Origin: Acidobacteriota bacterium
Lineage (GTDB): Bacteria; Acidobacteriota; Terriglobia; Acidiferrales; UBA7541
NCBI GenBank assembly: GCA_003224055.1
Contig: QHYE01000044.1
Coordinates: 62,001 to 126,000, forward strand
Direction: 5' to 3'
DNA: 64,000 nucleotides
Shown: positions 39,056-56,450 of the stretch, one piece after another
Numbering within the stretch: the first letter of the stretch is position 1
Layout: each line of letters begins with the position of its first letter
The notes under the pieces: generated by a model
The model's input: the letters and a program-made list of their open reading frames with translations, nothing else
The model's database searches: none
What the model was told of the DNA's origin: nothing
Position numbers and translations under genes: made by a program

Positions 39056-39316
39056 ACGATTGATCTCAGCCCGACTGGCGTGTTGGTCAAGGCTCGTCGC
39101 ATCCTTCCGGCGGGTTCGCCAGTGCGCGTAAGCCTGCACCTCTCTGGGCGCATGAGGCCCGTGGTTGCCACGGGTTCGGTCGTCCGCATTCTGGGTGGAA
39201 GCCAGATGGGAATTCAATTTGACCGCCTGGATCTCACCGAGAGCGAGCGATTGCAGGAATTCCTCTTGCCTCTGGTTCGTGAAGAGACTGCCCAAGCCTC
39301 GCCAACCGTCCTGTAG
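39056..39316 (+). pseudogene. PilZ domain remainder after an in-frame TAG
   Basis: Same frame as the receiver gene. The sequence continues TIDLSPTGVLVKARR, which holds the DxSxxG motif that belongs with the RxxxR before the stop, then VVRILGGSQMGIQFDRL, the typical PilZ end. A single base change (TAG from CAG, AAG, GAG or TGG) would explain the break. A GTG at 39080 could restart translation but has no ribosome site and would lose the DxSxxG motif. Either a recent nonsense mutation or a sequencing error. Confidence 0.75.
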
Positions 39317-39432
39317 CAACAGCGAATTGCCCGATTGCACTACTAGTCCAGAAGCGTCCCAAAAGAGACATACTGAGGCGCGCCAAACCAGTACAAACGG
39401 GCGTGGGGCGTGGATATTCAAACTAAGAATCG

Positions 39433-39461
39433 TTGACATTCAAATTCCAGGTGGCTATACT
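39433..39461 (+). promoter_or_regulatory. strong sigma70-type promoter of the second TonB receptor
   Basis: TTGACA (39433-39438), a 17-base spacer, then TATACT (39456-39461). Transcription would start near 39468, placing the operator-like 13-mer at 39481-39493 just after the start point, where a bound repressor would block elongation. Confidence 0.75.
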
Positions 39462-39480
39462 CCCCGCCAAATGGGTAGTT

Positions 39481-39493
39481 AACCGATTTAGCT
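39481..39493. promoter_or_regulatory. LacI-family operator candidate (copy 1)
   Basis: AACCGATTTAGCT is identical to the sequence at 49813-49825 beside the lacI-type gene. The centre is CG, as in LacI/GalR operators. Symmetry here is weaker on the left arm (GTTAACCGATTTAG). Confidence 0.55.
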
Positions 39494-39538
39494 GAGGGTG
39501 TCGGGCCCTTCGCAATTTTTGGGGTGAAGGAGCAAGTC

Positions 39539-42500
39539 ATGAGTCTATCCAAACTTTCGAATCAGGTGGTCTTAGTGTTTGCCTGCGCAGCGTTTTTGGC
39601 TGTGACCGCACACGCGCAGTTTCGCGCGGGTATTCAGGGGACAGTGACGGATTCGTCCGGGGCGATCGTAAAGGGCGCCAAGATTACCGTAACGAATCAG
39701 GAGACCGGCGCGTCGCAGGATGCCATTGCGGACGATGCCGGATTCTACAGTGTTGGCCATCTTGGACCGGGGTTGTACACCGTTAGTGCTTCTATGGCTG
39801 GTTTCAAGGTCAAGGTGATCAAGGACATCCGGATCAATGCCGAGGATACGAGTGGCGTAAACGTGGTCCTCGACCCGGGAGCCGTGACGGAAGAGGTTAC
39901 TGTTAACGGGGACACGCTCCCGACGCTTCAGACGGAAGACGCTTCGATCAGCGGTACAATCACCAGCGATCAAATTAACAGACTTCCGGAAGTCGGGCGA
40001 GACCCCTATGAGTTGGTTCGTCTGACTCCCGGAGTCTTCGGTCTCGGCGCACGCAATGCGAATGGCCAGTCCACGAACTTGCCCAATTACAGTGGCCCGG
40101 GCGGATCGAACAACTCGATCTTTCAGACGGAAAATGCCGTCCAGGTCAGCGCGAACGGCCAGCGCGTGGAGGCCAACGGCTACTCGATTGACGGCGTGAG
40201 CGTCAACAGCCAGACCTGGGGCGGGGCCGCTGTCATCACGCCCAACTCCGAATCGGTCAAAGAGATCAAGGTCGAGTCGAACACATACTCCGCTGAAAAC
40301 GGGCGCAATAGCGGCGCTTTAGTTGAAGTGGTTTCGCAGAATGGCACGAACCAGTTTCACGGCAGTTTCCTTTACAAGCTACACAGCCCGAGCTTGAACG
40401 CCTTTCAGAGGTGGGGAGGACCGAATGGTGAGGCTCCGCAGCGCGACACCACATTGCTCCGGAACTATGCGGGGAGCCTGGGCGGACCCATTTGGAAGAA
40501 CAAGGTCTTCGGCTTCTTTTCTTTTGAGCACATCTCGACACATGCGACTGGTCTTGAGTCGGAATGGATCGAAACACCTCAATGGATACAGAAGCTTCCG
40601 CCCAATAGTACTGCAGCAAAGATCTTTGCTGTTCCTGGCTCGGAGCCCAAGATTTTTAAGCAGCTCACCTCGACCTGCGCCGCTCTCGGTGTTGCTGTGG
40701 GGCCAAACTGCGCGGATGTCTCTGGCGGCGTGGACATCGGGAGTAATACGGGGACTCCCGGGACGATTGTGAATTCCACTAACGGAGGCGGGTTGGACGG
40801 ATCGCCCGACTTGCAGCAAGTGCAAGTTGAGGAGCCCAGCGGCACAAAGGCCACGCAGTACAATGCCCGCGTGGATTTTCAGGCCACTCAAAAAGACCTG
40901 GTCACGTTCAGCATGTACTACACACCGGTAACCAATACATTCGTACCCGGCAGCTGGTGCTGTAGTGCACGCCAGTACGATTTTTTCACCTCCGCCCGCC
41001 ACCACGAAGCAGCGGCGCTCCTTTGGACTCGGACGATATCCACGAGCCTGATCAACGAAGCGCGATTCAACGTGACCCGCTGGTATTTCGACGAAATCCC
41101 GTCGAATCCAAAGATCCCGTGGGGCGTCCCCAACAACAACATCAATATTCCGAACGGCAGCTTTCACACGAGCTATCCCGGCCCTGGCAAGTTCAACGAG
41201 ACATCTTACGATTTCCGCGACACACTAAGCAAAATACACAACAGCCACGTCTTAAAATTCGGGGGGGAACTCTCCAAGGAGCAAAACAACGACACCTCAC
41301 TCTGGGGTGACCGCCCAAACTTCAATTTCAACAACCTGTGGAGCTTCGGCAACGATGCGCCGACGGATGAGGGGACCGTCACGTATAACCCGAAGACCGG
41401 AGCTCCGACCGACTTTCGCAAATATGTTCGTGTCACGGATCTCGCGTTCTTCGGTCAGGACACTTGGAAATTCCGGCCGAACCTGACGCTGAGTCTCGGC
41501 TTGCGGTGGGAGTATTTAGGTGCTCTCCATGATAAATTCGGGCAGCTCAGCAACCTCGTTTTAGGAACAGGCGCCAACACGCTAACGGGTGCCAGCATCA
41601 AGATTGGCGGGAATCTCAGCAAGCCCGATTACAACAACTTCGGGCCGCAATTGGGCTTCGCATGGAGTCCGGGGCGTGTTTTCGGGCACGAGTTTGGCAA
41701 CAAACTGGTTTGGCGCGGCGGCTTTGGAGTCGGCTATAACCGCATCCCGGAATCCCTCACGCTGCAGGCGCGTGGTAACCCGCCGTCTTTCATTGCACAA
41801 GGCTTCCCGGCAAGCCAACTCCCGGCTGGCGTTTACACCATTAATCCGAATGGGATCTATGCTTTCTACGGCTTTCCCGCTAATCCGAATGCGATTATCG
41901 CGTTCGATCCAACCACAAACCTCCCGCTGAACGGCAGCCCAAGTATCACCGGTCCTCTCCAGAACATGCGTACGCCGTACACCTATCACTATTCCCTTGA
42001 GGGGCAGTATGATCTCGGGCATTCGTGGGTGGCGGCGCTCGGCTATCAAGGTAGCGGGAGCCGAAAGTATCCTCGGACTTTAAATTACAGCCTCTTATAC
42101 CAGCCCAACCCGCATCTCGGGATTGTTAATCTCTTTCAGTCGGACGTCAACGCGAACTATAATGCAATGCTCGCGCGCATTACTCACCGATTCTCGAGAG
42201 GATTGGAGTTCAACGCCAACTACCGCTGGAGCAAGAGCATGGATTTGTGCTCGAGCGACCAGAACTGCCAGCAGACCTATCCGTTTGACCAGCGCACAGA
42301 GCATGGACCTTCGGACTTCGACGTCACCCATTCCTTCACGGCGTACGCCTTGTACGACCTACCTCTCTTCCGAACAGGGCACGACTGGAGGCAGAAGCTG
42401 ATCGGAGGCTGGCAGCTCAACGGCATCTTGACGCTCAACTCCGGCTTTCCCTGGACACCGGTTTCGGATTCGGGTACTTCCTGTGCCTCCAGCGTTAACG

Positions 42501-42934
42501 CAGGATTTATTTGCCCGGTGCGGCCCGTCGCCTATAAGGGTGGAGCCGGGAATGACACGAGCACAGACAACCTCAAAAATAACGGCAATTTTCCGGGCGG
42601 TGGCCTTAACTTCTTCACTCCGCCAACGGCTCCGCCGGGCGGATATAGCATTCCGCCAGTCCCGGGTGTCGGCCGTAACTCGTTCCGCGGCCCGCGGTAC
42701 ACCGGCTTCGATATGAGCATTGCGAAGAGGTTTGGGCTGCCGAAATTCTGGGTCATCGGTGAGGGGGCGGGAATCGATTTACGCGCCAACTTCTTTAACG
42801 TATTCAACAAACTAAACCTGGCGCCCTTCGGGTTCCACAGCAACAGTACCACGATCGAACGCCCACTATTCGGACGTGCGACTGGGGCGCTTGGCGGACG
42901 CGTTATTGAATTCCAGGCGCGGTTTAGCTTTTAA
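39539..42934 (+). CDS. TonB-dependent outer-membrane receptor with carboxypeptidase-regulatory domain
   Basis: 1131 residues from ATG 39539 with AAGGAG 6 nt ahead (a GTG at 39524 is less likely). Signal peptide ends near FLAVTAHAQ. Carboxypeptidase-regulatory domain about 30-110 (GIQGTVTDSSGAIVKGAKI). The plug holds INRLPEVGRDPYELVRLTPG and YSAENGRNSGALVEVVSQNG; the barrel ends EFQARFSF. A probable LacI operator follows the promoter, linking it to the GH3/GH144 genes and suggesting a glucan ligand (inference). Two TPR genes follow on the same strand. No SusD gene. Confidence 0.93.
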   Translation: MSLSKLSNQVVLVFACAAFLAVTAHAQFRAGIQGTVTDSSGAIVKGAKITVTNQETGASQDAIADDAGFYSVGHLGPGLYTVSASMAGFKVKVIKDIRINAEDTSGVNVVLDPGAVTEEVTVNGDTLPTLQTEDASISGTITSDQINRLPEVGRDPYELVRLTPGVFGLGARNANGQSTNLPNYSGPGGSNNSIFQTENAVQVSANGQRVEANGYSIDGVSVNSQTWGGAAVITPNSESVKEIKVESNTYSAENGRNSGALVEVVSQNGTNQFHGSFLYKLHSPSLNAFQRWGGPNGEAPQRDTTLLRNYAGSLGGPIWKNKVFGFFSFEHISTHATGLESEWIETPQWIQKLPPNSTAAKIFAVPGSEPKIFKQLTSTCAALGVAVGPNCADVSGGVDIGSNTGTPGTIVNSTNGGGLDGSPDLQQVQVEEPSGTKATQYNARVDFQATQKDLVTFSMYYTPVTNTFVPGSWCCSARQYDFFTSARHHEAAALLWTRTISTSLINEARFNVTRWYFDEIPSNPKIPWGVPNNNINIPNGSFHTSYPGPGKFNETSYDFRDTLSKIHNSHVLKFGGELSKEQNNDTSLWGDRPNFNFNNLWSFGNDAPTDEGTVTYNPKTGAPTDFRKYVRVTDLAFFGQDTWKFRPNLTLSLGLRWEYLGALHDKFGQLSNLVLGTGANTLTGASIKIGGNLSKPDYNNFGPQLGFAWSPGRVFGHEFGNKLVWRGGFGVGYNRIPESLTLQARGNPPSFIAQGFPASQLPAGVYTINPNGIYAFYGFPANPNAIIAFDPTTNLPLNGSPSITGPLQNMRTPYTYHYSLEGQYDLGHSWVAALGYQGSGSRKYPRTLNYSLLYQPNPHLGIVNLFQSDVNANYNAMLARITHRFSRGLEFNANYRWSKSMDLCSSDQNCQQTYPFDQRTEHGPSDFDVTHSFTAYALYDLPLFRTGHDWRQKLIGGWQLNGILTLNSGFPWTPVSDSGTSCASSVNAGFICPVRPVAYKGGAGNDTSTDNLKNNGNFPGGGLNFFTPPTAPPGGYSIPPVPGVGRNSFRGPRYTGFDMSIAKRFGLPKFWVIGEGAGIDLRANFFNVFNKLNLAPFGFHSNSTTIERPLFGRATGALGGRVIEFQARFSF

Positions 42935-42978
42935 CTCCCAGCGACGCGCGATACCATGAAGGCGGAGCGTAACTCGCT

Positions 42979-44523
42979 GTGCGAAGCCGCGGCGAATTCC
43001 TTCGTTTCTTTTTGCTTGTTGGCGTGTGCTTGCCATTTGGCGGCGGCCTGGCTCGGGCCGTTCCGGCGCAGGCCGGCGATCCGGTCCAGTCGGAGGCGAA
43101 GCTTCGCGCCGCGATGGAGCGCTCCCCTGAAAATGCAACCTACGCTGCAAGACTTGGCGCACTGCTAGCAAGCGAGAACAGGCAGGAAGAGGCGAGCGAG
43201 CTGTTCGAAAAGGCACTCCGACTCAATCCTGGCGACCAAGAGACGCGCCGTAATCTTGCCGCGAGTCACTGGCGGCTCGGTCGTCTCGCTGAAGCACGTG
43301 AGAATCTGCAAACCGTTCTGAAGGTTCATCCGGAGGACTCCCTCGCGATTCTCCTCCTAGGGCTCGTCTCGGAAGATCTCGGCGATCACCCGAGCGCCGC
43401 GAAGCTTCTGGAGTCTGTTCCGCAAGTCGTACGGCAGCGGCCGGCCAGCGTGTCTGCCCTAGCCCGGGCCTATTATCACCTCGGCGAGCAGAAAAAGGCC
43501 CGCGAAGCACTTCTTGACCTGCTCTATCATCCCGATGATGTGCAGGGAGTGTTCCAAGCAGCCCGAACTGCCGCCGAGTTTGGCGACTATGATACGGCAC
43601 AGAAGCTGTTCAGCGCGTTACGTGCTACCTACCCGGACCATGGCATCCTCGAGTACAATATCGCTCTCTCTGAATTCAGTGTGGGCCGCTTTGCGGACAG
43701 CGAGAAAACATTGCAAGCCGCGATCGCCACAGGCGTTCCTACCGCCGATATGTATGCTTTGCTCGGCTGGTGCTACCAACGCCAGGGTAAGCACGTGGAA
43801 GCCGTGCATAGTTTTCAGCGAGCCATCGGCCTCGACTCGTCCCGGGACACGCTTTTCCTCGACTTGGCCGAGGTTTTGTCCGAAAACAAAGACTTTCAAG
43901 GAGCGTTGGAGATCATACGGCGTGTACTGAAAGTGTTTCCTCCTTCTGCTCGTGCCTATGAGTTGGTCGGTTCCGCAAAGCTGCATCAGGCAGAGCCCAA
44001 AGCAGCCGTCGAATGGTACTTAAAGGCACAGAAGATTGCACCTGCAGACGCGGAAGCTTCTCTGGGCGTGGCCGTGGCGCAGTGGGCAGCCAATGAAACG
44101 GAGCAAGCACGAAATTCCTTTGAGCAAGGAACAACTCGATATCCCGGCAATGCCATGTTTCACCTGCAGTATGCAGAGTTCCTCTTGGACCTTGCCGAGG
44201 CAGGCGACAGGAGCGTGGAGCCCCGCGCCGGGGAACACCTCCAGGCCTGTCTCAAGCTAGAGCCATCTAATCCGGAGGCGCACTACTATCTTGGAAGGCT
44301 CTTACTCCAGCAGGAGAAGTACGAGGACGCCGTGGCAGAGCTGAAAGTCGCTGAGAATCTTAGCCCTCAGGGGGCAACGATCCACTACGCCCTCGGCCGT
44401 GCGTACCAGAAGCTGGGTCGTCTGGAGGAAGCTGCAAAAGAGAACGAGAAGTTTCGATACTTAAAAAAGCAGGAAGAGTCAGAAGGTTCCACCTCGACTC
44501 CATCTGGCAAGCCGGATGGGTAG
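42979..44523 (+). CDS. exported TPR-repeat protein
   Basis: 514 residues from GTG 42979 (GGCGGAG about 11 nt ahead). The leader FFLLVGVCLPFGGGLARAVPA is a signal peptide. The rest is a string of about a dozen 34-residue TPR units, e.g. ASELFEKALRLNPGDQETRR and HYYLGRLLLQQEKYEDAVAE. No catalytic domain. It begins 45 bp after the TonB receptor and overlaps the next TPR gene by 8 bp, so the three form an operon. A periplasmic scaffold or substrate-binding partner of the receptor is likely. Confidence 0.88.
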   Translation: MRSRGEFLRFFLLVGVCLPFGGGLARAVPAQAGDPVQSEAKLRAAMERSPENATYAARLGALLASENRQEEASELFEKALRLNPGDQETRRNLAASHWRLGRLAEARENLQTVLKVHPEDSLAILLLGLVSEDLGDHPSAAKLLESVPQVVRQRPASVSALARAYYHLGEQKKAREALLDLLYHPDDVQGVFQAARTAAEFGDYDTAQKLFSALRATYPDHGILEYNIALSEFSVGRFADSEKTLQAAIATGVPTADMYALLGWCYQRQGKHVEAVHSFQRAIGLDSSRDTLFLDLAEVLSENKDFQGALEIIRRVLKVFPPSARAYELVGSAKLHQAEPKAAVEWYLKAQKIAPADAEASLGVAVAQWAANETEQARNSFEQGTTRYPGNAMFHLQYAEFLLDLAEAGDRSVEPRAGEHLQACLKLEPSNPEAHYYLGRLLLQQEKYEDAVAELKVAENLSPQGATIHYALGRAYQKLGRLEEAAKENEKFRYLKKQEESEGSTSTPSGKPDG

Positions 44524-45754
44524 TCGTCCGTCCATCGTGGCGGAGTTCCCCGGAAGTGTTCTGCCTTCCGCTGTGTTGCTGGCGGTTGCGGTGCTTAGCT
44601 GCCCCGCCGCTACCGCGCAGCAGAAGTCGCCCACAAGTCATTCATTTGAACAGACTGCCGCATTGGCGAAGCAGGCCAGCGAAGCAAACGATCTCAGGGA
44701 GGCCATTCCGCTATATCGGCACGCTCTTGCGCTGCGCCCCCAGTGGGCAGAGGGCTGGTGGTCGCTCGGAACGATTCTGTACGACCGTGACAATTATTTG
44801 GAGGCCGCAAGAGCCTTTCGGAAAGTGGTGGCGTTGCAGCCAGACCATGGCAGCGCCCGGGCTATGCTCGGCCTGTGCGAGTTCGAGCTTGGGCAGGATT
44901 CCGCCGCCCTTCGAGACATTCACCAGGGCAGACAACTTGGCATTCACCCGGACCCGCAACTCCGCCGCGTGGTGCTGTTTCACGAAGGAGTGCTGCTGCT
45001 ACGAAAAGGAAATTTCGAGAACGCGCAGCAAGTGTTTGATCTTGTGAGCCGAGATGGCGTCGAGGGCAATGAGTTGTTGCTGTACCTTGGGATGTCCGTT
45101 CTTCGCATTCTTCCCGCAAACGCGCCACCGGAAGGGTCCACTGCGCGCGAAATCGCTCTTCGCGCGGGGAGAGCAGAATCTTTTGCCGCTTCAAAACACT
45201 CTGATGAAGCGCGAAAGGAATACGGCCAGCTCGCTGATGAGAGCCCACAAACGGCAAACATTCACTACGCCTATGGCAGATTCCTGCTGGAGCTCCGCGA
45301 GATCGACGCGGCCGTCGCGGAGTTTCAGCGCGAGATTCAGAACAATCCAGGACACGTTCTCGCGCGGCTTGAGATTGCCGCTGTACGCTACGGGCTGGAT
45401 TCCGTAGATGGCGTGAAGTATGCGGAACAAGCGGTGAAACTCGATCCGCAGCGGCCGTTCGGACACTACATTCTCGGCTTGCTTTACTTGGATACGAACA
45501 ATTTCACGGGCGCGATTTCCGAGCTGGAAAGTGCGAAACGTTCTTATCCGAATGTTCCGGAAGTGTATTTTGCTCTCGGCAACGCCTACGCGCGTTCGGG
45601 CCGGAAGGCGGCAGCGACGCGCGCACGCGCAACATTCACGCGCTTGAAAGCGCAGAGCAAGAAGGAACCAGCCGACAACTTCTATGGTGAACAGACTTCC
45701 GGACTGACACATGAGAAGCTCGGCGCGGAAGCGGATGCGAAACCGCCTGAGTAG
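44516..45754 (+). CDS. exported TPR-repeat protein
   Basis: 412 residues. Signal peptide ending PAATAQQ. TPR units such as AIPLYRHALALRPQWAEGWW, AARAFRKVVALQPDHGSARA and AVAEFQREIQNNPGHVLARL. The ATG overlaps the end of the preceding TPR gene by 8 bp (44516-44523). Third gene of the receptor operon. The gap to the convergent GH144 gene (45755-45901) holds a weak GC hairpin near 45800-45840 that might stop transcription, but I do not call it. Confidence 0.87.
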   Translation: MGSRPSIVAEFPGSVLPSAVLLAVAVLSCPAATAQQKSPTSHSFEQTAALAKQASEANDLREAIPLYRHALALRPQWAEGWWSLGTILYDRDNYLEAARAFRKVVALQPDHGSARAMLGLCEFELGQDSAALRDIHQGRQLGIHPDPQLRRVVLFHEGVLLLRKGNFENAQQVFDLVSRDGVEGNELLLYLGMSVLRILPANAPPEGSTAREIALRAGRAESFAASKHSDEARKEYGQLADESPQTANIHYAYGRFLLELREIDAAVAEFQREIQNNPGHVLARLEIAAVRYGLDSVDGVKYAEQAVKLDPQRPFGHYILGLLYLDTNNFTGAISELESAKRSYPNVPEVYFALGNAYARSGRKAAATRARATFTRLKAQSKKEPADNFYGEQTSGLTHEKLGAEADAKPPE

Positions 45755-45901
45755 CCCGTGGATAGTAGACGCCTTCGAAATGAAGCAATAAGCGTTTTTG
45801 GCGCGAGGAATGCCCGACTCGCGACTTCCGCTGGCCGCGGTTCTTTTTTCTCGTGCACCGGAATGGTGGAGACTGCCTGAATCGAGAACCGGAAGGCTTT
45901 T

Positions 45902-47224
45902 CTACGTGGATCGGAAACCGACCTTTTGCATGGCCGATTGAGCTTCGGCGTTTTTCATGAAGGTGTTCCACACGAGGCCGCTGCGGTGGTTTTCGGCCAT
46001 GAGCATGGTGATCCCAAGGTCGATGCCGAGCACGTCCGTGTCGTACCAGCCGGTCAGCGGATTGAACGCGTCCACGAAGCTATATTTCACCCAGACCTTA
46101 TCCCTGTAGCGGCCCCGCAAGTTTCGCAGCACGCGCGCGCAGTCGTCGAAGAGGAACGGGAGAGATCCTCCGGTAGCGCAGGGGACGATGCTTCCGTCGA
46201 TCGGTCCTTGCGGCGGCGGGCCGCCCCAGGCCGTGTAGCCCTTCACATAATCCGAGGCACTGATTCCCCACAGGTTTTCGCTGTAGTCCGGGAATTGACC
46301 GTGCAGGGACAAACAAAAAAGTTTGTGAGCCTTCGTGGCTTTCACGGAATTGTCGAAGTAATCCGTGTACGCGTCCCGCTTGTTCCGGAAATCGTACCAG
46401 GCTTGAGAATATTGGTGCGTGAAAATCGGATCGTTTCCGGAGATGTATTCGATTCCCTGATATTTGATCGTGGGCCGCGTCCAGGCGTCCCAGCTCGTAG
46501 GAGGGAGCGGATGCGTCGGCGAACCGATGCCCAGCAGATAAATCATCATCAGTTCGCAGTAGTGCTCCCAGCGCGCATTGAGAAAGCCGGATTCGGGCAT
46601 CCAGCCCATGGAAAGCGTTGCGCCGCCGTTGAGCATCCACAGCCAGTCGACGCGTTCATAGATGGTCGTGGCGAGGTCCTTGATTTCCAGGTCCGCAAAA
46701 TATTGCCGCGCCGTCAGAACGCCGCACAGCAGAATCGAAGTATCGATGGACGAAAGCTCGCACTTTTCCCAGCGCTGCCCCGTCTCCATGTTGATGAAAT
46801 GAAAAAAGAAGCCATGTTCGTTCGGCAGCGTATTCGCGAGAAAGCGCAAAGTCTTCCGAACTCTTTCCAGAATATCGGCGGATTTCCCATAGCCGCGCTG
46901 GTCGCCGATGCACAAGCTGGCCAGGCCAAATCCAGTCGCCGCAATGCTGGACATCAGGCGCGAGTCATTTCCATTGGCCAGGGCGCGGTCCTTCACCTGG
47001 CCCGTGTTCTGGCTCCCTTCATTCCAGAAAAAACTGAACGTAGCGCGCTGAATTTCGTCGAGAAGTTGTTCGTCCGTTCCTTCGTAGGGGGCGCCGCGCG
47101 GCTCGGTGTAGGTGCGGGAGGCGGGCGCTCCGCAGCCTGCCAGTGCTGCCAGCGGAGAGCAGAGCAAGCTCATTCCGCCAATCCGCATTACTTCTCTACG
47201 GCTAAGGAAGCGCTCGCGCGTCAT
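45902..47224 (-). CDS. GH144-type endo-beta-1,2-glucanase-like lipoprotein (glycoamylase family)
   Basis: 440 residues. The N-terminus has a twin-arginine-like SRREVMR followed by a hydrophobic core and the lipobox LAGC, suggesting a lipidated exported protein. The catalytic (alpha/alpha)6 domain has family blocks ATFSFFWNEGSQNTGQVKDR, SIAATGFGLASLCIG, HGFFFHFINMETGQRWEKCE and GWMPESGFLNARWEHYCE. Characterised members of the glycoamylase (PF10091) family in GH144 are endo-beta-1,2-glucanases. It lies 15 bp downstream of the GH3 gene on the same strand, so the pair would first cut and then trim the glucan. Substrate specificity is inferred. Confidence 0.85.
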   Translation of the reverse strand: MTRERFLSRREVMRIGGMSLLCSPLAALAGCGAPASRTYTEPRGAPYEGTDEQLLDEIQRATFSFFWNEGSQNTGQVKDRALANGNDSRLMSSIAATGFGLASLCIGDQRGYGKSADILERVRKTLRFLANTLPNEHGFFFHFINMETGQRWEKCELSSIDTSILLCGVLTARQYFADLEIKDLATTIYERVDWLWMLNGGATLSMGWMPESGFLNARWEHYCELMMIYLLGIGSPTHPLPPTSWDAWTRPTIKYQGIEYISGNDPIFTHQYSQAWYDFRNKRDAYTDYFDNSVKATKAHKLFCLSLHGQFPDYSENLWGISASDYVKGYTAWGGPPPQGPIDGSIVPCATGGSLPFLFDDCARVLRNLRGRYRDKVWVKYSFVDAFNPLTGWYDTDVLGIDLGITMLMAENHRSGLVWNTFMKNAEAQSAMQKVGFRST

Positions 47225-47238
47225 GTCCTCGTCCTCTG

Positions 47239-49542
47239 TTACTTCACGATTTGGAGTGTTGCTTCAGAGCCGCTGCTCGAGTCCGGGCTCACCCAGATGG
47301 TGACGCGCGCGGGCTCGACAGCGAATTTGTTCTGATCGTTCCAGAAAGCGAAAGCGTCAGGTCCCACCGTGAAGGTCACCTTCTTTGTCTCACCCGGCGT
47401 CAAGGTGACGCGCTGAAACCCGCTCAATGCCCGGACCGGCAGCGCCACGCTCGTTCCTTGCAGCCGAACGTAAAGCTGGACGGTTTCTTCGCCCGCGCGG
47501 GTTCCAGTGTTCGTGACATCGGCGCTGACCTCCACTGCCGCATTCGATGCTCGTCCGCCGGCGCACAGTTCGTCATTCAACGCCCCTGCGCTCAGTTGCT
47601 CCTTGCTGAGCCGCGGCTGACCGTACTGATAGTTCGAATAGGAGAGACCGTAGCCGAAGGGAAATTGCGGGCTGTTTGGCACGTCGATGTATCGCGAAAC
47701 GAATTTCTCGTCCCCATTCTTCGGTGGGCGCGTTAGATCAATATTCCCCGCGGGGCGGCCCGTGTTTAAGGCATTGTAGTACAAGGGCTCCTGCCCAACG
47801 GCGCGCGGCCAGCTCACCACCAATTTTCCGCTCGGATTCACTTCTCCGAAGAGTGCGCGCAACAGCGCGGGGCCAGCCTGCACCCCTGGAAACCACGCGG
47901 CCACGACAGCAGGGACATGCTCGAAGGCCCAGGGCATCGTGAGTGGCCGGCCGCTGAAAAGCAGCAATACAACGGGCTTTCCCGTTGCGACAATTTTCTC
48001 CAGCAATTGTTGCTGTCGTCCCGGCAGGCCGAGGTGCGCGCGCGAAGCGGCTTCGCCGGTCATCGCCGGCGCATCTTCTCCCAACGCGAGAATCACGACA
48101 TCGGCTTGCTCCGCCGTTCTGACAGCATCGGCGATCTGGTCATCGGACCCTCCGATGATTTCAGTTCCCTTCGCGTAGCGAAGGCCATCGACTCCGAGTT
48201 TCTGTGTGAGCGCAGCGCGAAGCGTGACGACGTCCTCAGCGCGGCCTCGGGCAGCCCAGGAGCCAAGCATATTGTTCTGATCATCGGCTAATGGCCCAAT
48301 CAGAGCTATGGTCCTCGTTTCCGTGGAAAGCGGCAGAATTGGCGCTCCTCCCGGAGAAGCCGAATTCTTCAGAAGAACGAAAGACTGCTCCGCTGCCGTG
48401 CGCGCGAGCGTCAGACTCTCCGGCCGGAGCATGGCCGCTGCTTCCTTCACCTCGTCACTGTAGGGATGCTCAAACAAGCCCAGCGCAAACTTCACGCGTA
48501 AGACGCGCCGAACGGCCTCGTCCACGCGCGCCTCCGGCACTTCACCCGAGCGGACGAGTTGCGCGAGATGGTCGTGATAAAGACTACTGGCCATGTCCAT
48601 ATCCACGCCGCCCAAAAACGCCTTGCGTGCTGCAGCCGCCCCGTCGTTAGCTATGCCATGTGCCACGAGCTCGGCAACCGAAGTCCAGTCGCTGTCAACA
48701 ACCCCTTGGAAGCCCCACTCCGTGCGCAGAATCTGTCTCAGGGTAAAAGGGTTTGCGGAAGCCGGTACTGCATTCAGGGAATTGAACGCGCCCATCAGTG
48801 TTGCGGCGCCCGCATCGACTGCGGCATGGAAGGGCGGCAAATAAAATTGGCGCAGCGTGTGCTCCGAAAGCTCTACGCTGTTGTAATCGCGTCCGCCTTC
48901 CGCAGCACCGTAGCCGACAAAGTGCTTCGGGCACGCCGCGATGCTGTCTGCCGCATCCAGCCTGGTGCCCTGGTAGCCACGCACGTAGGCGCTCGCCATC
49001 GCCGAGCCGAGATAGGGATCTTCTCCGGAGCCCTCGGCCATTCGTCCCCATCGGGCGTCTCTCGCAATATCCACCACCGGCGAAAAAGTCCAACGGATAC
49101 CGCTCGCGGAGGCTTCGCGCGCTGCCACGCGCGCGGCCCGTTCCACTAACTGAGGATCCCAACTGGAAGCGAGGCCCAGAGGGATCGGAAATTCCGTGCG
49201 AAATCCGTGAATCACATCGAGACCGAAAAGGAGCGGTATGCGCAAGCGGGACTGCTCCACCGCGATGCGCTGGTAGACATTTACCTCGCGCGCGGTCGTG
49301 ATATTAAAGAGCGCCCCGACCTCTCCCTTGCGGATCATGCTGTCGTAATCGGTGCGTCCCGTGCCCGGTCCCGTTGGCTGTCCGGCGGAATATTGAACTA
49401 GCTGGCCGACCTTTTCCTCGAGCGTCATCTTTTGCAAAAGCGCTTCTATTTTTCGCTCTGAGTTTGGATCGTTCAGACTTGGGCGCGCGCTTGTCGCATG
49501 GGCTACTCTGAACGAAGAACGAGTCTGTGCCGAGACGGGCAA
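47239..49542 (-). CDS. bglX: GH3 family beta-glucosidase
   Basis: About 767 residues of intact frame from TTG 49542. GH3 N-terminal barrel with IRWTFSPVVDIARDARWGR and KHFVGYGAAEGGRDYN; nucleophile Asp285 in GVVDSDW. GH3 C-terminal domain with LALGEDAPAMTGEAASRA, then a fibronectin-III-like tail (TNTGTRAGEETVQLYVR). The TTG has no ribosome site and the first residues look like the end of a signal peptide (LPVSAQT). The hydrophobic part of the signal is in the next frame upstream (49543-49595), so the gene probably starts at GTG 49595 with a frameshift. Beta-1,2-glucosidase is likely given the GH144 neighbour. Confidence 0.92.
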   Translation of the reverse strand: MPVSAQTRSSFRVAHATSARPSLNDPNSERKIEALLQKMTLEEKVGQLVQYSAGQPTGPGTGRTDYDSMIRKGEVGALFNITTAREVNVYQRIAVEQSRLRIPLLFGLDVIHGFRTEFPIPLGLASSWDPQLVERAARVAAREASASGIRWTFSPVVDIARDARWGRMAEGSGEDPYLGSAMASAYVRGYQGTRLDAADSIAACPKHFVGYGAAEGGRDYNSVELSEHTLRQFYLPPFHAAVDAGAATLMGAFNSLNAVPASANPFTLRQILRTEWGFQGVVDSDWTSVAELVAHGIANDGAAAARKAFLGGVDMDMASSLYHDHLAQLVRSGEVPEARVDEAVRRVLRVKFALGLFEHPYSDEVKEAAAMLRPESLTLARTAAEQSFVLLKNSASPGGAPILPLSTETRTIALIGPLADDQNNMLGSWAARGRAEDVVTLRAALTQKLGVDGLRYAKGTEIIGGSDDQIADAVRTAEQADVVILALGEDAPAMTGEAASRAHLGLPGRQQQLLEKIVATGKPVVLLLFSGRPLTMPWAFEHVPAVVAAWFPGVQAGPALLRALFGEVNPSGKLVVSWPRAVGQEPLYYNALNTGRPAGNIDLTRPPKNGDEKFVSRYIDVPNSPQFPFGYGLSYSNYQYGQPRLSKEQLSAGALNDELCAGGRASNAAVEVSADVTNTGTRAGEETVQLYVRLQGTSVALPVRALSGFQRVTLTPGETKKVTFTVGPDAFAFWNDQNKFAVEPARVTIWVSPDSSSGSEATLQIVK

Positions 49543-49595
49543 ACAAATAGCAAGGAGCTGGCAACAACTGCGGAACGAAGCAGCAGCGAATTCAC
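49543..49595 (-). other. frame-shifted signal-peptide segment of the GH3 gene
   Basis: GTG 49595 is preceded by GGGAGA about 10 nt upstream and begins a hydrophobic run NSLLLRSAVVASSLLFV in a frame different from the GH3 body. The GH3 frame then supplies LPVSAQT, which would be the natural signal cleavage end. A one- or two-base indel within the T-rich stretch near 49540-49550 joins them. Confidence 0.55.
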
Positions 49596-49806
49596 GATTC
49601 GAATTCTCCCATGATTTCCCGGAGCATGGAGCCGTTCGTCGCCTGCCGATCGAACTGGCTCAGCCGTCAAACAGTTTCCGTCACCGCTCAAGCAAGTACG
49701 ATGAAGCTTCCCCGCCGTTCTCAATGCAAAGAACTCGCAGTGTCATCGCCATCATCAGGCAGCCTCGAGCAGCAGCGACGCCCCCAGTGGCAACGATGGA
49801 AACAGC

Positions 49807-49835
49807 ATACTAAACCGATTTAGCTCGTCTTTCAA
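49807..49835 (-). promoter_or_regulatory. GH3/GH144 promoter with LacI-family operator (copy 2)
   Basis: On the minus strand TTGAAA (complement of 49830-49835), a 17-base spacer and TAGTAT (complement of 49807-49812) make a promoter facing the GH3 gene. CTAAACCGATTTAG (49810-49823, 12 of 14 bases symmetric, CG centre) fills the spacer. The 13 bases 49813-49825 are repeated exactly at 39481-39493 before the TonB receptor. The 200 bases between promoter and GH3 start hold nothing else I can name. Confidence 0.6.
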
Positions 49836-49926
49836 GCCGTGCAGCAAGTATGATGGGCCCGCTTGCAGTAAGGCATGCCTTGTCCCGCTTCTGCCGAATG
49901 TGCGAGACTACGAGGCCATACACCCT

Positions 49927-50994
49927 ATGTCTCGGCCGAAATCAGGCTTGAATTCTCACGCGCGCAAACCTGCACGACAGAGCGTCAGTCTGAAGTCGCT
50001 CGCAGAGCACCTCGGACTCTCTCAAGCTGCTGTTTCCCTAGTGATTAACCGTTCACCTGCCGCGAAATCAATTCCACATCGTACCCAGGAATTAATTCGT
50101 GCCGCCGCCCGCGAACTCAACTATAGGCCGAACCAGCTCGCCCGATCGCTCCGGCAGCAACGTAGTTATACCATCGGCGTGGTTGTGCCGGAAATCAGCG
50201 AAGGTTACGCGGCTCTGGTCATGTCGGGAATTGAGGATCATCTTCTTCAAGAAGGCTACTTCTACTTCGTTGTAAGCCACCGCCACCGCCAGGATCTAAT
50301 CGAAGAATATCCTCTGCTTCTTCAGCAGCGGGCTGTCGAAGGACTGATCGCGGTGGACACGGCATTCACCGAAGGCGTACAGGTGCCGCTCGTCGCAGTT
50401 TCCGGCCATCGCGATGTGCCTGGCGTAACAAATATTATTTTGAATCATGCGCTCGCAGCCACGCTGGCCCTCGAACATCTTACGAAGCTCGGGCACCGCA
50501 AGATGGCTTTCATCAAAGGGCAGGAATTCAGCTCGGACACGGCAGTGCGGTGGGATTCCGTGCGCGGCGCAGCCGAAGAACTCGGCATCGAGATCAAGGA
50601 TCGTTTGGTCGTGCAACTCGAGGGAGAATCGTCTTCGCCGGAACTCGGTTACCAGGTTACACAAAAGCTTCTCGCTTCGCGCGAACCGTTTACGGCTCTC
50701 TTTGCCTTCAATGACATTTCAGCGATTGGCGCGATTCAGGCCCTGCGGGAGGCAGGCCGCCGTGTTCCCGAAGATGTCTCCGTCGTGGGTTTTGACGACA
50801 TTCAAAGTGCGGCGTTCCAGAATCCTGCCCTGACCACGGTCCGGCAGCCTTTGCGAGCGATGGGCGTGATCGCGGCAGAAACGTTGCTTCGCCGTATTAC
50901 GGCGCCCGCAAATACACCCTACCCAAAGGAAATCGTCGTTGAACCAGACTTGGTCGTCCGCGCCAGCACTGCGAAGGCCCCTGGCTCATCTTAG
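49927..50994 (+). CDS. LacI-family transcriptional regulator
   Basis: 355 residues from ATG 49927 (GAGG about 10 nt ahead; GTG 49900 is an alternative). N-terminal helix-turn-helix VSLKSLAEHLGLSQAAVSLV and hinge helix NYRPNQLARSLR, then a periplasmic-binding-protein-like sensor domain with TIGVVVPEISEGYAALVMSG, NHALAATLALEHLTKLGHR and DVSVVGFDDIQSAAFQNP. It is divergent from the GH3-GH144 pair with a CG-centred palindrome between. It probably represses that pair, itself and the TonB receptor at 39539, released by a glucan-derived sugar. Confidence 0.94.
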   Translation: MSRPKSGLNSHARKPARQSVSLKSLAEHLGLSQAAVSLVINRSPAAKSIPHRTQELIRAAARELNYRPNQLARSLRQQRSYTIGVVVPEISEGYAALVMSGIEDHLLQEGYFYFVVSHRHRQDLIEEYPLLLQQRAVEGLIAVDTAFTEGVQVPLVAVSGHRDVPGVTNIILNHALAATLALEHLTKLGHRKMAFIKGQEFSSDTAVRWDSVRGAAEELGIEIKDRLVVQLEGESSSPELGYQVTQKLLASREPFTALFAFNDISAIGAIQALREAGRRVPEDVSVVGFDDIQSAAFQNPALTTVRQPLRAMGVIAAETLLRRITAPANTPYPKEIVVEPDLVVRASTAKAPGSS

Positions 50995-51056: not shown

Positions 51057-51920
51057 TCAGACCTGCAGATCGTGAAGGTAAGGAACGCTGGCTTTCATCA
51101 TTTCCAGGTTCATTTCGACGAAGTAATTCTTTATGCCGCCCGTCTTCGCCGCGGTAAAGATTTTCTTCCAATCCAGACTGTCCTGTCCCACCGGCATGAC
51201 TTTTTTGGCTTCCGCTGACCAGCCTTGTACGTGCATTGAAAAGAAGCGACCAGGGTATTTCGTGAAATACTCTGCGGCGTCGTAGCCGTGACTAATTGTG
51301 GAGACCTGGAACTGGAACTTGACCAGTTTCGGATCGAGAAAGTCCAGCAATAAGTCATAGGTCCGCTTGCCGTCAACTATCGACAGCTCAAAGTCCTCGT
51401 TGTGAAGGCCCTGCTGGATGCCAGCCTTGGCCGACTGTTCGCCCATTTTGTTGTATTCGTCAGCCGCTCGCTTCACATCATCGATGGTCGGTTTCCCGGG
51501 TCCGTCGAGGCTTGGCACGATCATTTGCGTCAGGCCGACGTCTTTCGCCCAGGCAATTCGGCCCTCCTGGCCCTCCCTGAGTTCCTTTATGCCGAAGTGA
51601 GAACTCACACAGGTGACGCCTGCATCGCCCAGAATTCTCCGTAGCTCGGTTCCCGTGTATTTGGCGAGGCCGGCGAAGCCGGAATCGGCGTAACCTACCG
51701 GCGAGCACAGCTCAATGGTCTGAAATCCGGCCTTGGCAAGCTGCTTGATCGTGCCGGGAAAGTCCTTGGCGATCATCTCCCTCACAGGCCAGGTCTGACA
51801 TCCAATGGGCATGCCAAGTGGATTAGCGCAAAGCTCCAGTGCACACGCGGAAAGGAAGCTAGCCGCGGCGACGTTCGTCGCCGCATTCTTTAAAAACTCT
51901 CTTCTCGAAACCGCAGACAT
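51057..51920 (-). CDS. sugar phosphate isomerase/epimerase-like TIM-barrel protein, Tat-exported
   Basis: 287 residues from ATG 51920 with AAGGAGGG 7 nt ahead. A clean twin-arginine signal SRREFLKNAATNVAAASF precedes a xylose-isomerase-like barrel: IGCQTWPVREMIAKDFPG, AGFQTIELCSPVGY, HNEDFELSIVDGKRTYDLL, VKFQFQVSTI, FSMHVQGWS, NYFVEMNLEM; the last blocks normally carry metal-binding Glu, Asp and His residues. Some metal ligands of true isomerases look changed (Gln for Asp in KFQFQ), so activity may differ. Located 92 bp downstream of a CRTAC1 gene, same strand. Confidence 0.88.
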   Translation of the reverse strand: MSAVSRREFLKNAATNVAAASFLSACALELCANPLGMPIGCQTWPVREMIAKDFPGTIKQLAKAGFQTIELCSPVGYADSGFAGLAKYTGTELRRILGDAGVTCVSSHFGIKELREGQEGRIAWAKDVGLTQMIVPSLDGPGKPTIDDVKRAADEYNKMGEQSAKAGIQQGLHNEDFELSIVDGKRTYDLLLDFLDPKLVKFQFQVSTISHGYDAAEYFTKYPGRFFSMHVQGWSAEAKKVMPVGQDSLDWKKIFTAAKTGGIKNYFVEMNLEMMKASVPYLHDLQV

Positions 51921-52012
51921 TGACGCCCTCCTTACCCGCCTGCGCGATCAAGGTCATCGTCACTCAAGTGGGCGAACGCATTATACTCGGACAGCGCCGA
52001 GGAAGTCGGAAG

Positions 52013-53791
52013 TCATCCTTTGTATCCAGTGCCTTTGCGGAGCGTGATGATCGTATCCGCAGGAACTTTGTCCCACGACTCCTTCGACCCATCAGGCCAG
52101 TAAACCACCACAAGCTCGATCTTGGGGTCTATTCCAAGGCCAAAATGCACTCGGACATCGCTGGCGCCCAGGTAACTGGAATCTGTATGCACGCGGCGAA
52201 GTAGTTTGCGTCCTCGTTGTTGGAGTTCGATGCGCGCGCCAATCCCGAAAAGGTTCTTTCGGGATTGTTCCAGGCGTACCTGCAACCAGTGGTTGCCATT
52301 GTGCTTACCGGTTTCGTTCAACAAAAGGCGGACCGGCCCGTTGTTGTTGGTCACCAGGATATCGATGTTCCCGTCGTTGTTGACATCTCCGAAAGCCGCT
52401 CCGCGGCTTACCTCCGAAAGCGCAAATGCCGGACCTGCCAAGCGCGTGGTCTCGCGAAACCTTTTTCCCTCTTCGTTGTGGAACAACTGGTTGATCTGAT
52501 GGAAAGGAAACTTGCTGCCGCGCAGAGATTCCTGGCGCGTAACCGCTCCATTGGCGATGAAGACATCGAGGAATCCGTCGTTGTCGTAGTCAAACCACTG
52601 TGTGCCAAATCCGGTGTAGGGGAAAGTCGGTTGCCACAGGCCGAACTCTGCCGTGGCATCATAGAAATTTCCCTTGCCATCATGGCGATAAAGAACGCAG
52701 CCTTCCTTGGTAAGATTGGTTACCAGCAAGTCTTCCACGCCGCGATTGCTGATGTCCCCAAGGGCGATGCCCATGCTCCCTTGAGGGGTACCTTCACCAT
52801 TGTATGCGGCGCCGGAAGCCAAACCTGCTTCCTTAAACGTCCCATTTTTCTGGTTAAGCCAAAGGTAGTTGGGGGCGCCGTCGTTGGCAACATAGATGTC
52901 CATCCAGCCGTCGCCATTGAAATCAGCACAGACGACACCGAGACCGGGGCCGGGAAAGGCTCCGATACCCGATTCTTCCGTGATGTCGACAAACTTGCCG
53001 TTCCCCAGATTGTGGAACAGTCTCGCTGAAACGGGCCGGTACATCTTCGGAGTGCAGTAGTCGAGTTCGCCCGTGGGAGCAAAGCAGCGCTTGTTGCCCT
53101 TGATGGTAAAGTCCAGATAATTGGCAACGAAGAGGTCAAGGTTCCCATCGTTGTCATAGTCAACCCAAGAAGCGCTGGTTGCCCAAGCCTTGTTTTCAAG
53201 CCCCGACTGGCGCGTCACATCTGTGAATGTTCCGTCGCCGTTGTTGTGATACAAAATGTTGCGCCCAAAATTGGTTACGAAGAGATCCATGAAGCCATCG
53301 TTATCGTAGTCACCGGTTGCAACACCCATGCCATAACCAGCGCTCGTCAATCCTGCCTGTTCGGTGACATCGGTGAATTTCAGGTGCCCCGTCCTCATCA
53401 GTTCGTTGCGGAAAAGGCGGTTGCCAGGCTGCCATCCGGCGGGAGGGGGGAATAGCGGTTGAGGGGCGCCCTTCCGTGCATCAAGAAGTGTTCCTTGCAC
53501 GAGGTAAATGTCCAGAGCGCCGTCGTTGTCGTAATCAAACAGGGCTGCGCCTGCGCCCATGATCTCGGGCATGAAATATTCGCCGGTAGCTCCGTTAAGA
53601 TGATGGAAATTTAGCCCCACCTCGGAAGCCACTTCAGAAAACACCGGGGACCGCAGGGATCTGTCGAAGGTCGGGAAATTCAGTCTGCGCGCCCAGGCAG
53701 CTGCGACAGGAACAAAAAACAGAAAATCGCGCCGGCTCATAGCAGCTGCCAGCGAACGACCGCCTCTCAGCTTGGAATTTTCGTGCTTCAA
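52013..53791 (-). CDS. CRTAC1-type FG-GAP/ASPIC-UnbV protein, Tat-exported
   Basis: 592 residues from TTG 53791 (coupled to the TPR stop by a 4-base overlap; ATG 53740 is an alternative that starts MSRRDFLFF). Twin-arginine signal [16 protein letters not shown]. About seven FG-GAP/VCBS repeats with calcium-binding loops [48 protein letters not shown], forming a beta-propeller, then the ASPIC/UnbV domain ([20 protein letters not shown]). Probably a surface or periplasmic ligand-binding protein. Middle gene of GntR-TPR-CRTAC1-isomerase. Confidence 0.9.
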
Positions 53792-55254
53792 TGAGAGTTA
53801 GCCTGCGATCCGAGGATCTTTAGATCACTGTCGATTCTCGCCACAAGCTGGTGCTGCCCGCGCGATTGCGCTTTAGCGCGACCCTCACGCAAATATTGGA
53901 TAGCGTTTTCCCGGTCACCCGCCCGGGCATAGGCTGCGCCCAGAGCATAGAGGTATCCCGGCGTGCTTTCATCCTCAGGCGCAATGGTTTTCAGTAAATG
54001 TTGAATACCTGCCGCAAAGTCGCGGCGATTCACTAAGAGGCGCCCCAGATGGAAGTGGGCGAGACGGTATCCCGGTTCTTGCTCAACCGCCTTTTGGAAT
54101 TCCAGTTCAGCATCAGCTAGCCCGCCACGTTGTTCCAGAAGAACGCCAAGATTGTTGTGGGCCTCAGCATGGGAAGGGTTGATCTCCAGCGCCTTCCGGA
54201 AGGCCATCTCCGCTTCTTCGTAGCGCCCCGCGCCTGTCATAAGTACACCGTAATCGTAGTGCGCTCCCTCCTCTTCAGGAGCCAGTTGAACCGCCTTGTG
54301 GTAGTGCTGCTCTGCTTTTTCCAGTTCATTCAGACGGCCGTAAATCGAGATCAGGTTTACATGGGCCTGCACCATTGCCGGATCGATTTTCAGCGCTCTT
54401 TCATGCGCCTCGGCAGCCTCCTGCAATTTTCCAGCGCGGTCGAGGTCGTTCCCTAAGCGAATCTGAATTGTAGCGCTGCGATTCAGCGCGTGCACTTCTT
54501 CCACTAACGGGTCGCGAGCTGGTGGTCCCGTGTCTTTGTTCCTCTCGTAGTTTTGAAATTCTTCACGCGCTTTTTCTTCTTCTTCTATCGTTCGATATGC
54601 AAGTGCCAGGGCGTAATAGGCTGCGCCAAACTCCGGAAACAAGTTGCAGGCGGCGCGATACGAATCAATGGCCGCGCGCACCTCGTGCCGTGCGGTTTGA
54701 ACCTTCCCAAGCCCGTAGTACGCCTCGGCACTGTCGGGATGGTCCCTCAGAATCGCCTTGTAGAGGGCTTCACTTTCCTCCCATTGTGCGGAACTACGAA
54801 GGCACTCAGCTACTTTCAGGCGGGCCGGGAGATAGCCAGGACTTAGGGTCAATGCCTTGCGGAGTGATTTGACGGCACCGTCGCAGTTTCCCTGGTCGGC
54901 TTGGGACCGGCCCAGATAATAGATCCAGCCGAAATGGGATGGCGCGAGTTGGTGGGCGCGGCGGTAGGCGATCTCGGCTCCTTCCAGTTGGCTGTATGCC
55001 TGCAGAACCATACCCAGCTTTCCATTGGCGGTGGCGTTGCGGGGATGCGCCACGGCCGCATCGTATGCTTCTTGAACCTGCTTGCGAACCGCAGGAAGGA
55101 ACTGCTGAAGGTAGAGCTTCGGGAGCGGAGGGAGAGACTCTGCGGAGAAGGTGACGTGAGGACTGCACAGAAACAAAATCGTCAGCCACAAAACGACAAG
55201 TCGCCCGGCGGCTGTCCGCCGCCGGAAAGTCCTAGCGGAATCGGCGGACCACAA
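53788..55254 (-). CDS. exported TPR-repeat protein
   Basis: About 488 residues from TTG 55254, which overlaps the GntR gene end by 23 bp; an open frame runs back to 55581 but that part is inside gntR. Signal peptide with basic start [11 protein letters not shown] and core [13 protein letters not shown]. About ten TPR units, e.g. [20 protein letters not shown] and [20 protein letters not shown]. The start has no strong ribosome site, pointing to coupling with gntR. The stop overlaps the CRTAC1 start by 4 bp. Confidence 0.85.
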
Positions 55255-55954
55255 GGCTGTGCCGTTCAGATCGGTAGAAGCCCAGAACGTACATGATCGC
55301 TTTGCCTGCGGTGGAATGGATGACCTGACGAATGCGGAGGAGCGGCTCGCCGTACGGAATCGCGAGGAGATCGGCAATCCGGTGATCGGCAGCCGTGGCG
55401 TCAATTTCCTCATCCGCGTAGCCGATCTCCACTTTATACTTCCGTTCGAGGAAAGCGAAGAGTGATTCGCGGTCAAGCGGGGCCGAAAGAAGATCGGGAA
55501 ATTCGGCCGCGCGGAGATAGCATGTTTCGAGGGCGAACGGCTCGCCGGCACCATGGCGCAGGCGTTCGAGCTTGATGACACTGCTCCTCGGGGGCAAGGA
55601 GAGGTGCGCTGTGGCTTCGTCTTCGTTCGTGACGATTTTCGAGCACAGCACTTTGGAGCTTGCGGTCAGGCTGCGACTGGCCATCTGCTCCGTATAGCTC
55701 ATCAGTTTGTTGAAGTGGATCTTTGGAGCCGCAACGAATGTGCCGACGCCCTGGCGGCGCTCGACGATGCCTTCGCGCTCGAGCGAGGTGAGCGCATGGC
55801 GTGCTGTCATAAGACTAACCTGGTAAATCCTTGCCAAGTCTCTTTCCGATGCAACTACGTCCCCCGGGTGGAGCTCCCCAGACTCAATGCGCTTGCGAAG
55901 GACGTTTTGGATCCTCTGGTAAGCAGGCAAGCCGTTTCGATTCTTAGGCGGCAT
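55232..55954 (-). CDS. GntR-family (HutC/UTRA) transcriptional regulator
   Basis: 240 residues. Winged helix at the N-terminus ([40 protein letters not shown] and [15 protein letters not shown]), then a UTRA ligand-binding domain ([19 protein letters not shown] to [16 protein letters not shown]). The first gene of a minus-strand unit with TPR and CRTAC1 genes and divergent from the third TonB receptor. It probably controls both sides through sites in 55955-56450, such as the palindrome AGCTATATAGCT at 56229-56240. Confidence 0.93.
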
Positions 55955-56210
55955 CCTCTCTCTCGAATCTGCCGGTCAGCGTAGCTCGGCTGTAATTGTG
56001 CGCAGGCCATCCGGCGAACAGTCCGCTCGACTGGATGAATACAAGGTGAGCCTATGTCCTTCCTCCAAAACACACCGATCGCTATCAGGACATGCAGAGG
56101 CACCCATCCTGCGGCGCGGGCCCGACCTTTGGTCTTAATTCCTACGAGCACATTCCAACGAAGTGCTATGGTGCGCCTTGCAGGTCCCTTTATAAATCAC
56201 AAGTTTTCGC

Positions 56211-56240
56211 TTGACAACTACCATCTACAGCTATATAGCT
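56211..56240 (+). promoter_or_regulatory. promoter of the third TonB receptor with a palindromic operator candidate
   Basis: TTGACA (56211-56216), a 17-base spacer and TATAGC (56234-56239); TATATA at 56232 is an alternative -10 with 15 bases. The -10 is embedded in AGCTATATAGCT (56229-56240), a perfect 12-base palindrome that could be a GntR site. The part 55955-56210 upstream holds no other clear motif. Confidence 0.6.
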
Positions 56241-56299
56241 ATTGCCCATTCGGCCATACTTTAGCCAAGCGTGCTGTTTTTCCGTCGAGGAAACCAAGA

Positions 56300-56330
56300 G
56301 CGAAACCAACTGGACCACCGGTGGTTTCGC
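56300..56330 (+). promoter_or_regulatory. inverted repeat in the leader of the third TonB receptor
   Basis: GCGAAACCA (56300-56308) pairs perfectly with TGGTTTCGC (56322-56330), enclosing 13 bases. The inner bases overlap ACCACCGGTGGT (56314-56325), a perfect palindrome. It lies about 55-85 nt after the predicted transcription start, in a leader of roughly 200 nt. It could be an RNA structure or a protein-binding site; no known riboswitch pattern was recognised. Confidence 0.45.
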
Positions 56331-56450
56331 ACTCGAGGGAATGGCGAAGTGTTCGTAACGCCTGCTGTGTTTGAGTTGGTGTTCGTCTTTAATGGTTGTT
56401 CTGTCGAGGGTAACCACGGTGCAGTGCTTTGATTATTTAAAGGAGGAATG

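Follow-up and report, generated by a model that had tools for sequence, protein, structure and literature searches.

In Xanthomonas campestris, SuxR, a repressor of the LacI/GalR family, controls a TonB-dependent receptor together with a sugar enzyme in the suxAB locus, which is induced by its substrate, sucrose (available text of PMC1790865), and the SucR/Psuc system of Caulobacter crescentus likewise has a LacI-type repressor acting on a TonB-receptor operon (available text of PMC11897816). A RegPrecise survey of LacI-family regulons covering seven phyla describes local sugar regulons whose usual operator is an even palindrome with a central CG, and in which autoregulation is frequent (available text of PMC4052901). 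Degradation of beta-1,2-glucan has been described for systems that combine GH144 enzymes with GH3 enzymes related to Lin1840 and to a Bacteroides enzyme (PMC12102758 and PMC12369401, in the parts available). The locus analyzed here lies in a window of 64,000 nucleotides of DNA from a soil acidobacterium, the whole stretch that was examined, and resembles each of these systems in part: a single LacI-family protein very probably represses both a receptor-TPR-TPR unit and a GH3-GH144 unit through two predicted operators, O1 and O2, from which a sugar would release it. Among the papers listed in literature searches, and judged by title or by the start of the abstract, none joined LacI, TonB receptors, and Acidobacteria.

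The receptor unit occupies the plus strand. It begins with a TonB-dependent receptor gene (39539..42934), whose product we take to be Oar-like, continues after 44 nt with a TPR protein (TPR a, 42979..44523), and ends with a second TPR protein whose gene overlaps the first (TPR b, 44516..45754). The likely start of the receptor is the ATG at 39539, following AAGGAG at 39527-39532, although the listed open reading frame begins at 39524. Pfam assigns CarboxypepD_reg, OMP_b-brl_4, and TonB_dep_Rec_b-barrel to the protein, with a barrel domain of the TonB-receptor type scoring 420.7 bits for PF25183 and 30.2 bits for PF00593; no separate plug family is listed in Pfam at E 0.001. As many as 81 stretches of the window's own genome match this receptor. 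A homologue of TPR b is found downstream of the receptor in several relatives, and ASPIC and TPR proteins also occur downstream of it in relatives. A neighboring second unit in the window (51057-59897), encoding a sugar isomerase-like protein, ASPIC/UnbV and TPR proteins, and another receptor, carries no operator.

The enzyme unit lies on the minus strand and consists of a BglX-like GH3 beta-glucosidase (47239..49542, 5' end uncertain) and, 14 nt further on, a GH144 endo-beta-1,2-glucanase homologue (45902..47224; PF10091). The GH3 protein carries the N-terminal, C-terminal, and Fn3-like domains PF00933, PF01915, and PF14310, scores above the cut-off of the NCBIfam BglX model, and is related to Lin1840 (E about 1e-144) and to solved Bacteroides-type enzymes; structure 5xxl is presumably the Bacteroides enzyme BT_3567. 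Its signal peptide appears to be frame-broken (window 49500-49620, minus strand), in that a leader like that of relatives and the mature part stand in different frames, and either an error of sequencing or assembly or a real shift would account for this. The GH144 label given in the earlier note holds against a characterized enzyme: the best solved match is 8xul, which is XcSGL of GH144 (E 5e-67), with CpSGL at E 6.6e-47 (5gzh), and the only member of the newer families listed among the structure matches is 8xuk (PgSGL3, GH194; E 1.6e-14). XcSGL has been characterized as a GH144 enzyme and the residues of its clan, GH-S, have been named (available text of PMC12102758). These residues are kept, XcSGL E239, F286, and Y367 aligning with E224, F268, and Y330 of the window protein under a chain numbering whose offset of 14 was deduced from the E239Q mutant and is consistent for all three. 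By inspection, the GH144 protein begins with what resembles a twin-arginine signal carrying a lipobox. Beyond the GH3 gene, on the plus strand, lies the LacI-family repressor gene (49927..50994), whose product gives 27.5 bits with PF00356 (cut-off 27) and 115.8 bits with PF13377, also matches PF00532, and aligns across most of its length with the solved PurR, CcpA, and LacI, which places it in the family. Its start was set to the ATG at 49927 in preference to the GTG at 49900 of the listed open reading frame since the alignments of many orthologues begin at residues 7-10 of that frame.

The two units are connected by a 13-mer, AACCGATTTAGCT, which the earlier note had reported at two places. 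Exact copies do stand at 39481-39493 and 49813-49825, and the window holds no others within two mismatches; the whole genome (4,527,594 bases in 136 contigs) has these two exact copies, both in the window, and two more with one mismatch. The first copy follows, as had been claimed, a strong promoter of the receptor, TTGACA-17-TATACT (39433..39461, plus strand), which matches the consensus at 11 of 12 positions. The predicted operator at this point, O1 (AGTTAACCGATTTAGC; 39477..39492, no strand), is CG-centered with an imperfect left half, reading GTTAA in place of CTAAA; it begins 15 nt past the -10 element, with its core (39479-39490) 17 nt from that element, and covers about +10 to +25 relative to the predicted transcription start. 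The second copy had been placed between the -35 and -10 elements of a promoter facing GH3, and the palindrome is indeed situated in the spacer of TTGAAA-17-TAGTAT (49807..49835, minus strand, 9 of 12 consensus matches), where it also overlaps the -10. This predicted operator, O2 (ACTAAACCGATTTAGC; 49809..49824, no strand), lies upstream of lacI as well and is 10,332 bp from O1. The near-symmetry about a central CG noted at 49810-49823 is likewise present as CTAAACCGATTTAG, and the symmetric form CTAAAnCGnTTTAG occurs within one mismatch at that single place in the whole genome. With three mismatches allowed, the count of this form is that of chance (18 found, 17.6 expected). O2 is an even, CG-centered palindrome of the 16-22 bp form found near promoters in the LacI family, and O1 is an imperfect version of it. 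Past O1, close relatives have a conserved 5' leader of the receptor (window 39493-39535, GAGGGTG...), and a weak terminator-like hairpin directly follows the operator at 39493-39512; Rfam gave no match across 39300-50100.

Conservation of these sites was followed from the repressor and from the receptor. The LacI protein was searched in 61 genomes, 46 of which gave a match, and loci with at least 65% identity were taken as orthologous, giving 28 loci in 28 genomes (own included, 65-100% identity). TAAAnCGATTTA, on either strand, lies upstream of lacI exactly in 25 of the 28 and with at most one mismatch in 26; the two close loci without a lacI-side site are L053 (genome G033) and L058 (genome G003). 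In a wider sample, 80 named LacI homologues drawn from a collection with one genome per species and partly overlapping the 28 loci, up to 350 nt upstream contained a perfect site in 40/80 and a site within one mismatch in 59/80 (absent in the other 21), the pattern having been defined on part of the counted loci before counting. The corresponding one-mismatch counts in controls were 0.31 expected by Markov resampling, 3 for the reversed pattern, and 0 for equal stretches inside lacI. The share of loci with such a site varies with LacI identity, from 18/19 at 75% or more through 18/21 at 65-75% and 7/11 at 60-65% to 16/29 at 50-60%. By title, the homologues are acidobacterial save for one record called Betaproteobacteria (L082, CAJCHZ010000052.1); its LacI falls inside the acidobacterial clade, and the record is probably a mislabeled bin. 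The consensus of the predicted 16-bp CG-centered operator is about ACTAAA-n-CG-n-TTTAGT, and its center varies: in close kin of the window the recognition helix begins with Q or K and the center is ACCGAT, and in many others these are P and ATCGAT. This hints at covariation of recognition helix and operator center, a pairing that is broken in L103 and L109, where P stands with ACCGAT.

The receptor start is included in 18 of the 28 LacI loci (8 have no receptor match and 2 are cut at the receptor 5' end), and a site lies within 260 nt of it in 17; in the eighteenth, L055, it occupies the same gap at a distance of about 300 nt. Searching instead with the receptor protein in 20 further genomes gave 11 with an orthologue of the 40-48% class, eight of them with a readable 5' end, and the site was present in 7/8, at 49 to 96 nt before the start of the alignment, several of these receptors having already been met through the site. 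Several of the site-bearing receptors are on contigs without lacI. The exception, G002, has neither the site at its receptor nor a LacI orthologue (best match 53%), and among other receptors in the same output only one in 12 has a one-mismatch match, at -236 and with a TG center. A receptor with the site and no detected LacI orthologue was found in G001, G015, and G029, assemblies that are 74, 63, and 74% complete. The spacing is also kept, since in window-like promoters, the only form found by the fixed expression used for matching, 16/17 promoter-site pairs have 15-18 nt between the -10 and the start of the core; the remaining pair (22 nt, L134) has a receptor promoter that is only putative. 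The receptor is about 40-48% identical where LacI reaches 90% identity. Replacement of the receptor beneath a fixed operator was considered and rejected in the nine relatives tested, the operator-linked gene being the best receptor match genome-wide in 9/9, and the receptor is therefore a fast-diverging orthologue.

Three gene orders retain the site: the window type, in which GH144 and GH3 separate lacI from a receptor lying far upstream; one in which the receptor is divergent from lacI; and one in which the receptor is downstream of lacI and GH3 is divergent. These layouts cluster on a LacI tree with many open forks and a midpoint root (22 changes vs 39.7 in shuffles), and no layout is put forward as the ancestral one. 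Taken together, phylogenetic footprinting (26/28 and 59/80 on the LacI side, 17/18 and 7/8 on the receptor side) supports the link of both sites to LacI that the earlier note had proposed. The sites, their rarity, their positions, and their conservation with LacI are computed results.

The genome-wide search that had been suggested as a check was run with the motif itself and with a sequence-only model built from 22 sites, O1 and O2 among them. The motif is rare, with two strong sites: O2 (18.9 bits) and O1 (16.4 bits) rank first and second in the genome and both are at promoters, with the next matches at 11.8 and 11.4 bits, although E-values for O2 and O1 are modest at 0.0074 and 0.048. A search of 36 genomes in the genus gave a match at E <=1 in 30, and the site at the lacI locus was the best in 22 of these. 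Of twenty sites taken from the higher-scoring matches outside lacI, seven lie directly before a receptor orthologue on a contig without lacI; since the site led to those receptors, they do not count as independent evidence. A search for wider targets among the other 13 was negative: Pfam on 20 neighboring proteins, one of which stood beside a site from a different search, gave no common theme save alanine dehydrogenase twice, and these 13 matches are regarded as mostly chance. A site-like palindrome is found just before the alanine dehydrogenase gene in both cases (L261 3497, G004:C283; L280 811, G025:C766).

That the two copies are merely a chance repeat of 13 bases can be set aside with near certainty. 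Repeated 13-mers are common in the window, where 195 distinct ones occur at least twice (21/195 with five or fewer G+C), and at two mismatches AACCGATTTAGCT finds at least two matches in 18/100 shuffles, so that the bare repeat carries little weight; it is position, the conservation of both promoter copies across many genomes, and genomic rarity that take the observation beyond chance. It is also improbable that another LacI-family paralogue reads the sites, with the adjoining lacI only partly, or not at all, the reader of the receptor site. The genome does contain five LacI-family matches, and a closely similar motif, TTnAAnCGATTTAA, precedes glucokinase in 5/8 genomes, including one without a LacI orthologue (G020, 91% complete). 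Against this, the site adjoins a lacI of the window type in 26/28 loci and is missing from the receptor of G002, which has no LacI orthologue; moreover, the 55% and 39% identity paralogues differ from the window LacI in recognition-helix residues, and in 39 paralogue upstream regions no such site is among the three best CG-centered palindromes of any. Operators of these paralogues were also examined as a source of the site and rejected, as no CG-centered palindrome is shared by the group upstream of 20 genes (39% group) or 19 genes (55% group); 2/19 of the latter share palindromes of the AGACAAACG type.

The glucokinase sites also bear on the extent of the regulon. A wider one, which would take in glucokinase and, depending on the species, further genes, is unlikely, if less so than a different reader of the sites. 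In the window's own genome, TGAATCGATTTA lies outside the window between zwf and glk (G000:C50:12479-12490; L067 1501-1512), and sites at a similar distance before glk occur in G012, G008, G019, G018, G021, and G020, with TTnAAnCGATTTAA at about -49 in G012, G008, G019, G018, and G020. However, the outer bases of the glk motif are TT..AA rather than CT..AG, the site before the genome's own glk is not among the model matches up to E 10, no glk site is present in the close relatives G011 and G017, and G020 has one without the LacI orthologue. Because G020 carries the motif while lacking this LacI, such sequences may be recognized by a different regulator, perhaps one of the LacI family that governs glucose use.

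The reading we prefer remains that of a single LacI acting at O1 and O2. Binding, repression, the extents of the operons, and the inducer are what we infer from sequence. The LacI protein (49927-50994) would bind the 16-bp CG-centered palindrome, probably as a dimer. At O2 it would lie over the spacer of the GH3 promoter and reach into its -10 element, competing with RNA polymerase and silencing GH3-GH144, and from the position of O2 it probably represses lacI itself. At O1, just past the transcription start, it would block transcription of the operon formed by the receptor and the two TPR genes. LacI would be released by an incoming sugar, for which glucose or a beta-1,2-gluco-oligosaccharide produced by GH144 and GH3 is the likeliest candidate, so that outer-membrane import and degradation would be induced at the same time; a loop between O1 and O2 would not be needed because each site has its own promoter. 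Of the five genes that the earlier note had assigned to the regulon, sites are found at the promoters of the receptor and GH3, and the TPR proteins and GH144 would belong to it by operon membership, as suggested by the 44-nt gap, the overlap, and the 14-nt gap. The GH144 clan residues and the relatedness of GH3 suggest beta-1,2-glucan as the substrate, and this is no more than likely because such GH3 enzymes can have broad specificity.

Whether the arrangement amounts to a regulon for beta-1,2-glucan uptake across the Acidobacteriota is a more tentative matter, with the odds slightly against it; it would comprise one LacI lineage and the same operator before a fast-diverging receptor, retained across three or more gene orders and even with the genes on different contigs. 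If true, the operator and not gene order would mark the partner of the repressor among a genome's dozens of receptors. Acidobacteria have many TonB receptors of unknown substrate, and here a conserved repressor site would assign one receptor to one enzyme pair, and therefore to one likely substrate. Catalogs of LacI operators would also be extended to a phylum that goes unmentioned in the main text of the RegPrecise survey, in which the string 'acidobacteri' is absent (available text of PMC4052901).

LacI-controlled TonB-receptor loci are already known in other bacteria, and this locus is another instance. Its likeness to SuxR is one of regulatory arrangement, not of shown homology to the window LacI, and in the available account the suxAB genes adjoin one another in a single locus that includes an inner-membrane transporter, whereas here two units stand 10 kb apart, the enzymes are GH3 and GH144, and the phylum is another (PMC1790865). 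SucR responds to sucrose and sucR is constitutively expressed, as far as the available text goes, whereas here an operator lies upstream of lacI (PMC11897816), in keeping with the local sugar regulon, the even CG palindrome, and the frequent autoregulation of the RegPrecise collection (PMC4052901). The available descriptions of beta-1,2-glucan systems include no LacI-controlled receptor (PMC12102758, PMC12369401), whereas here a receptor would be linked to enzymes of these predicted families.
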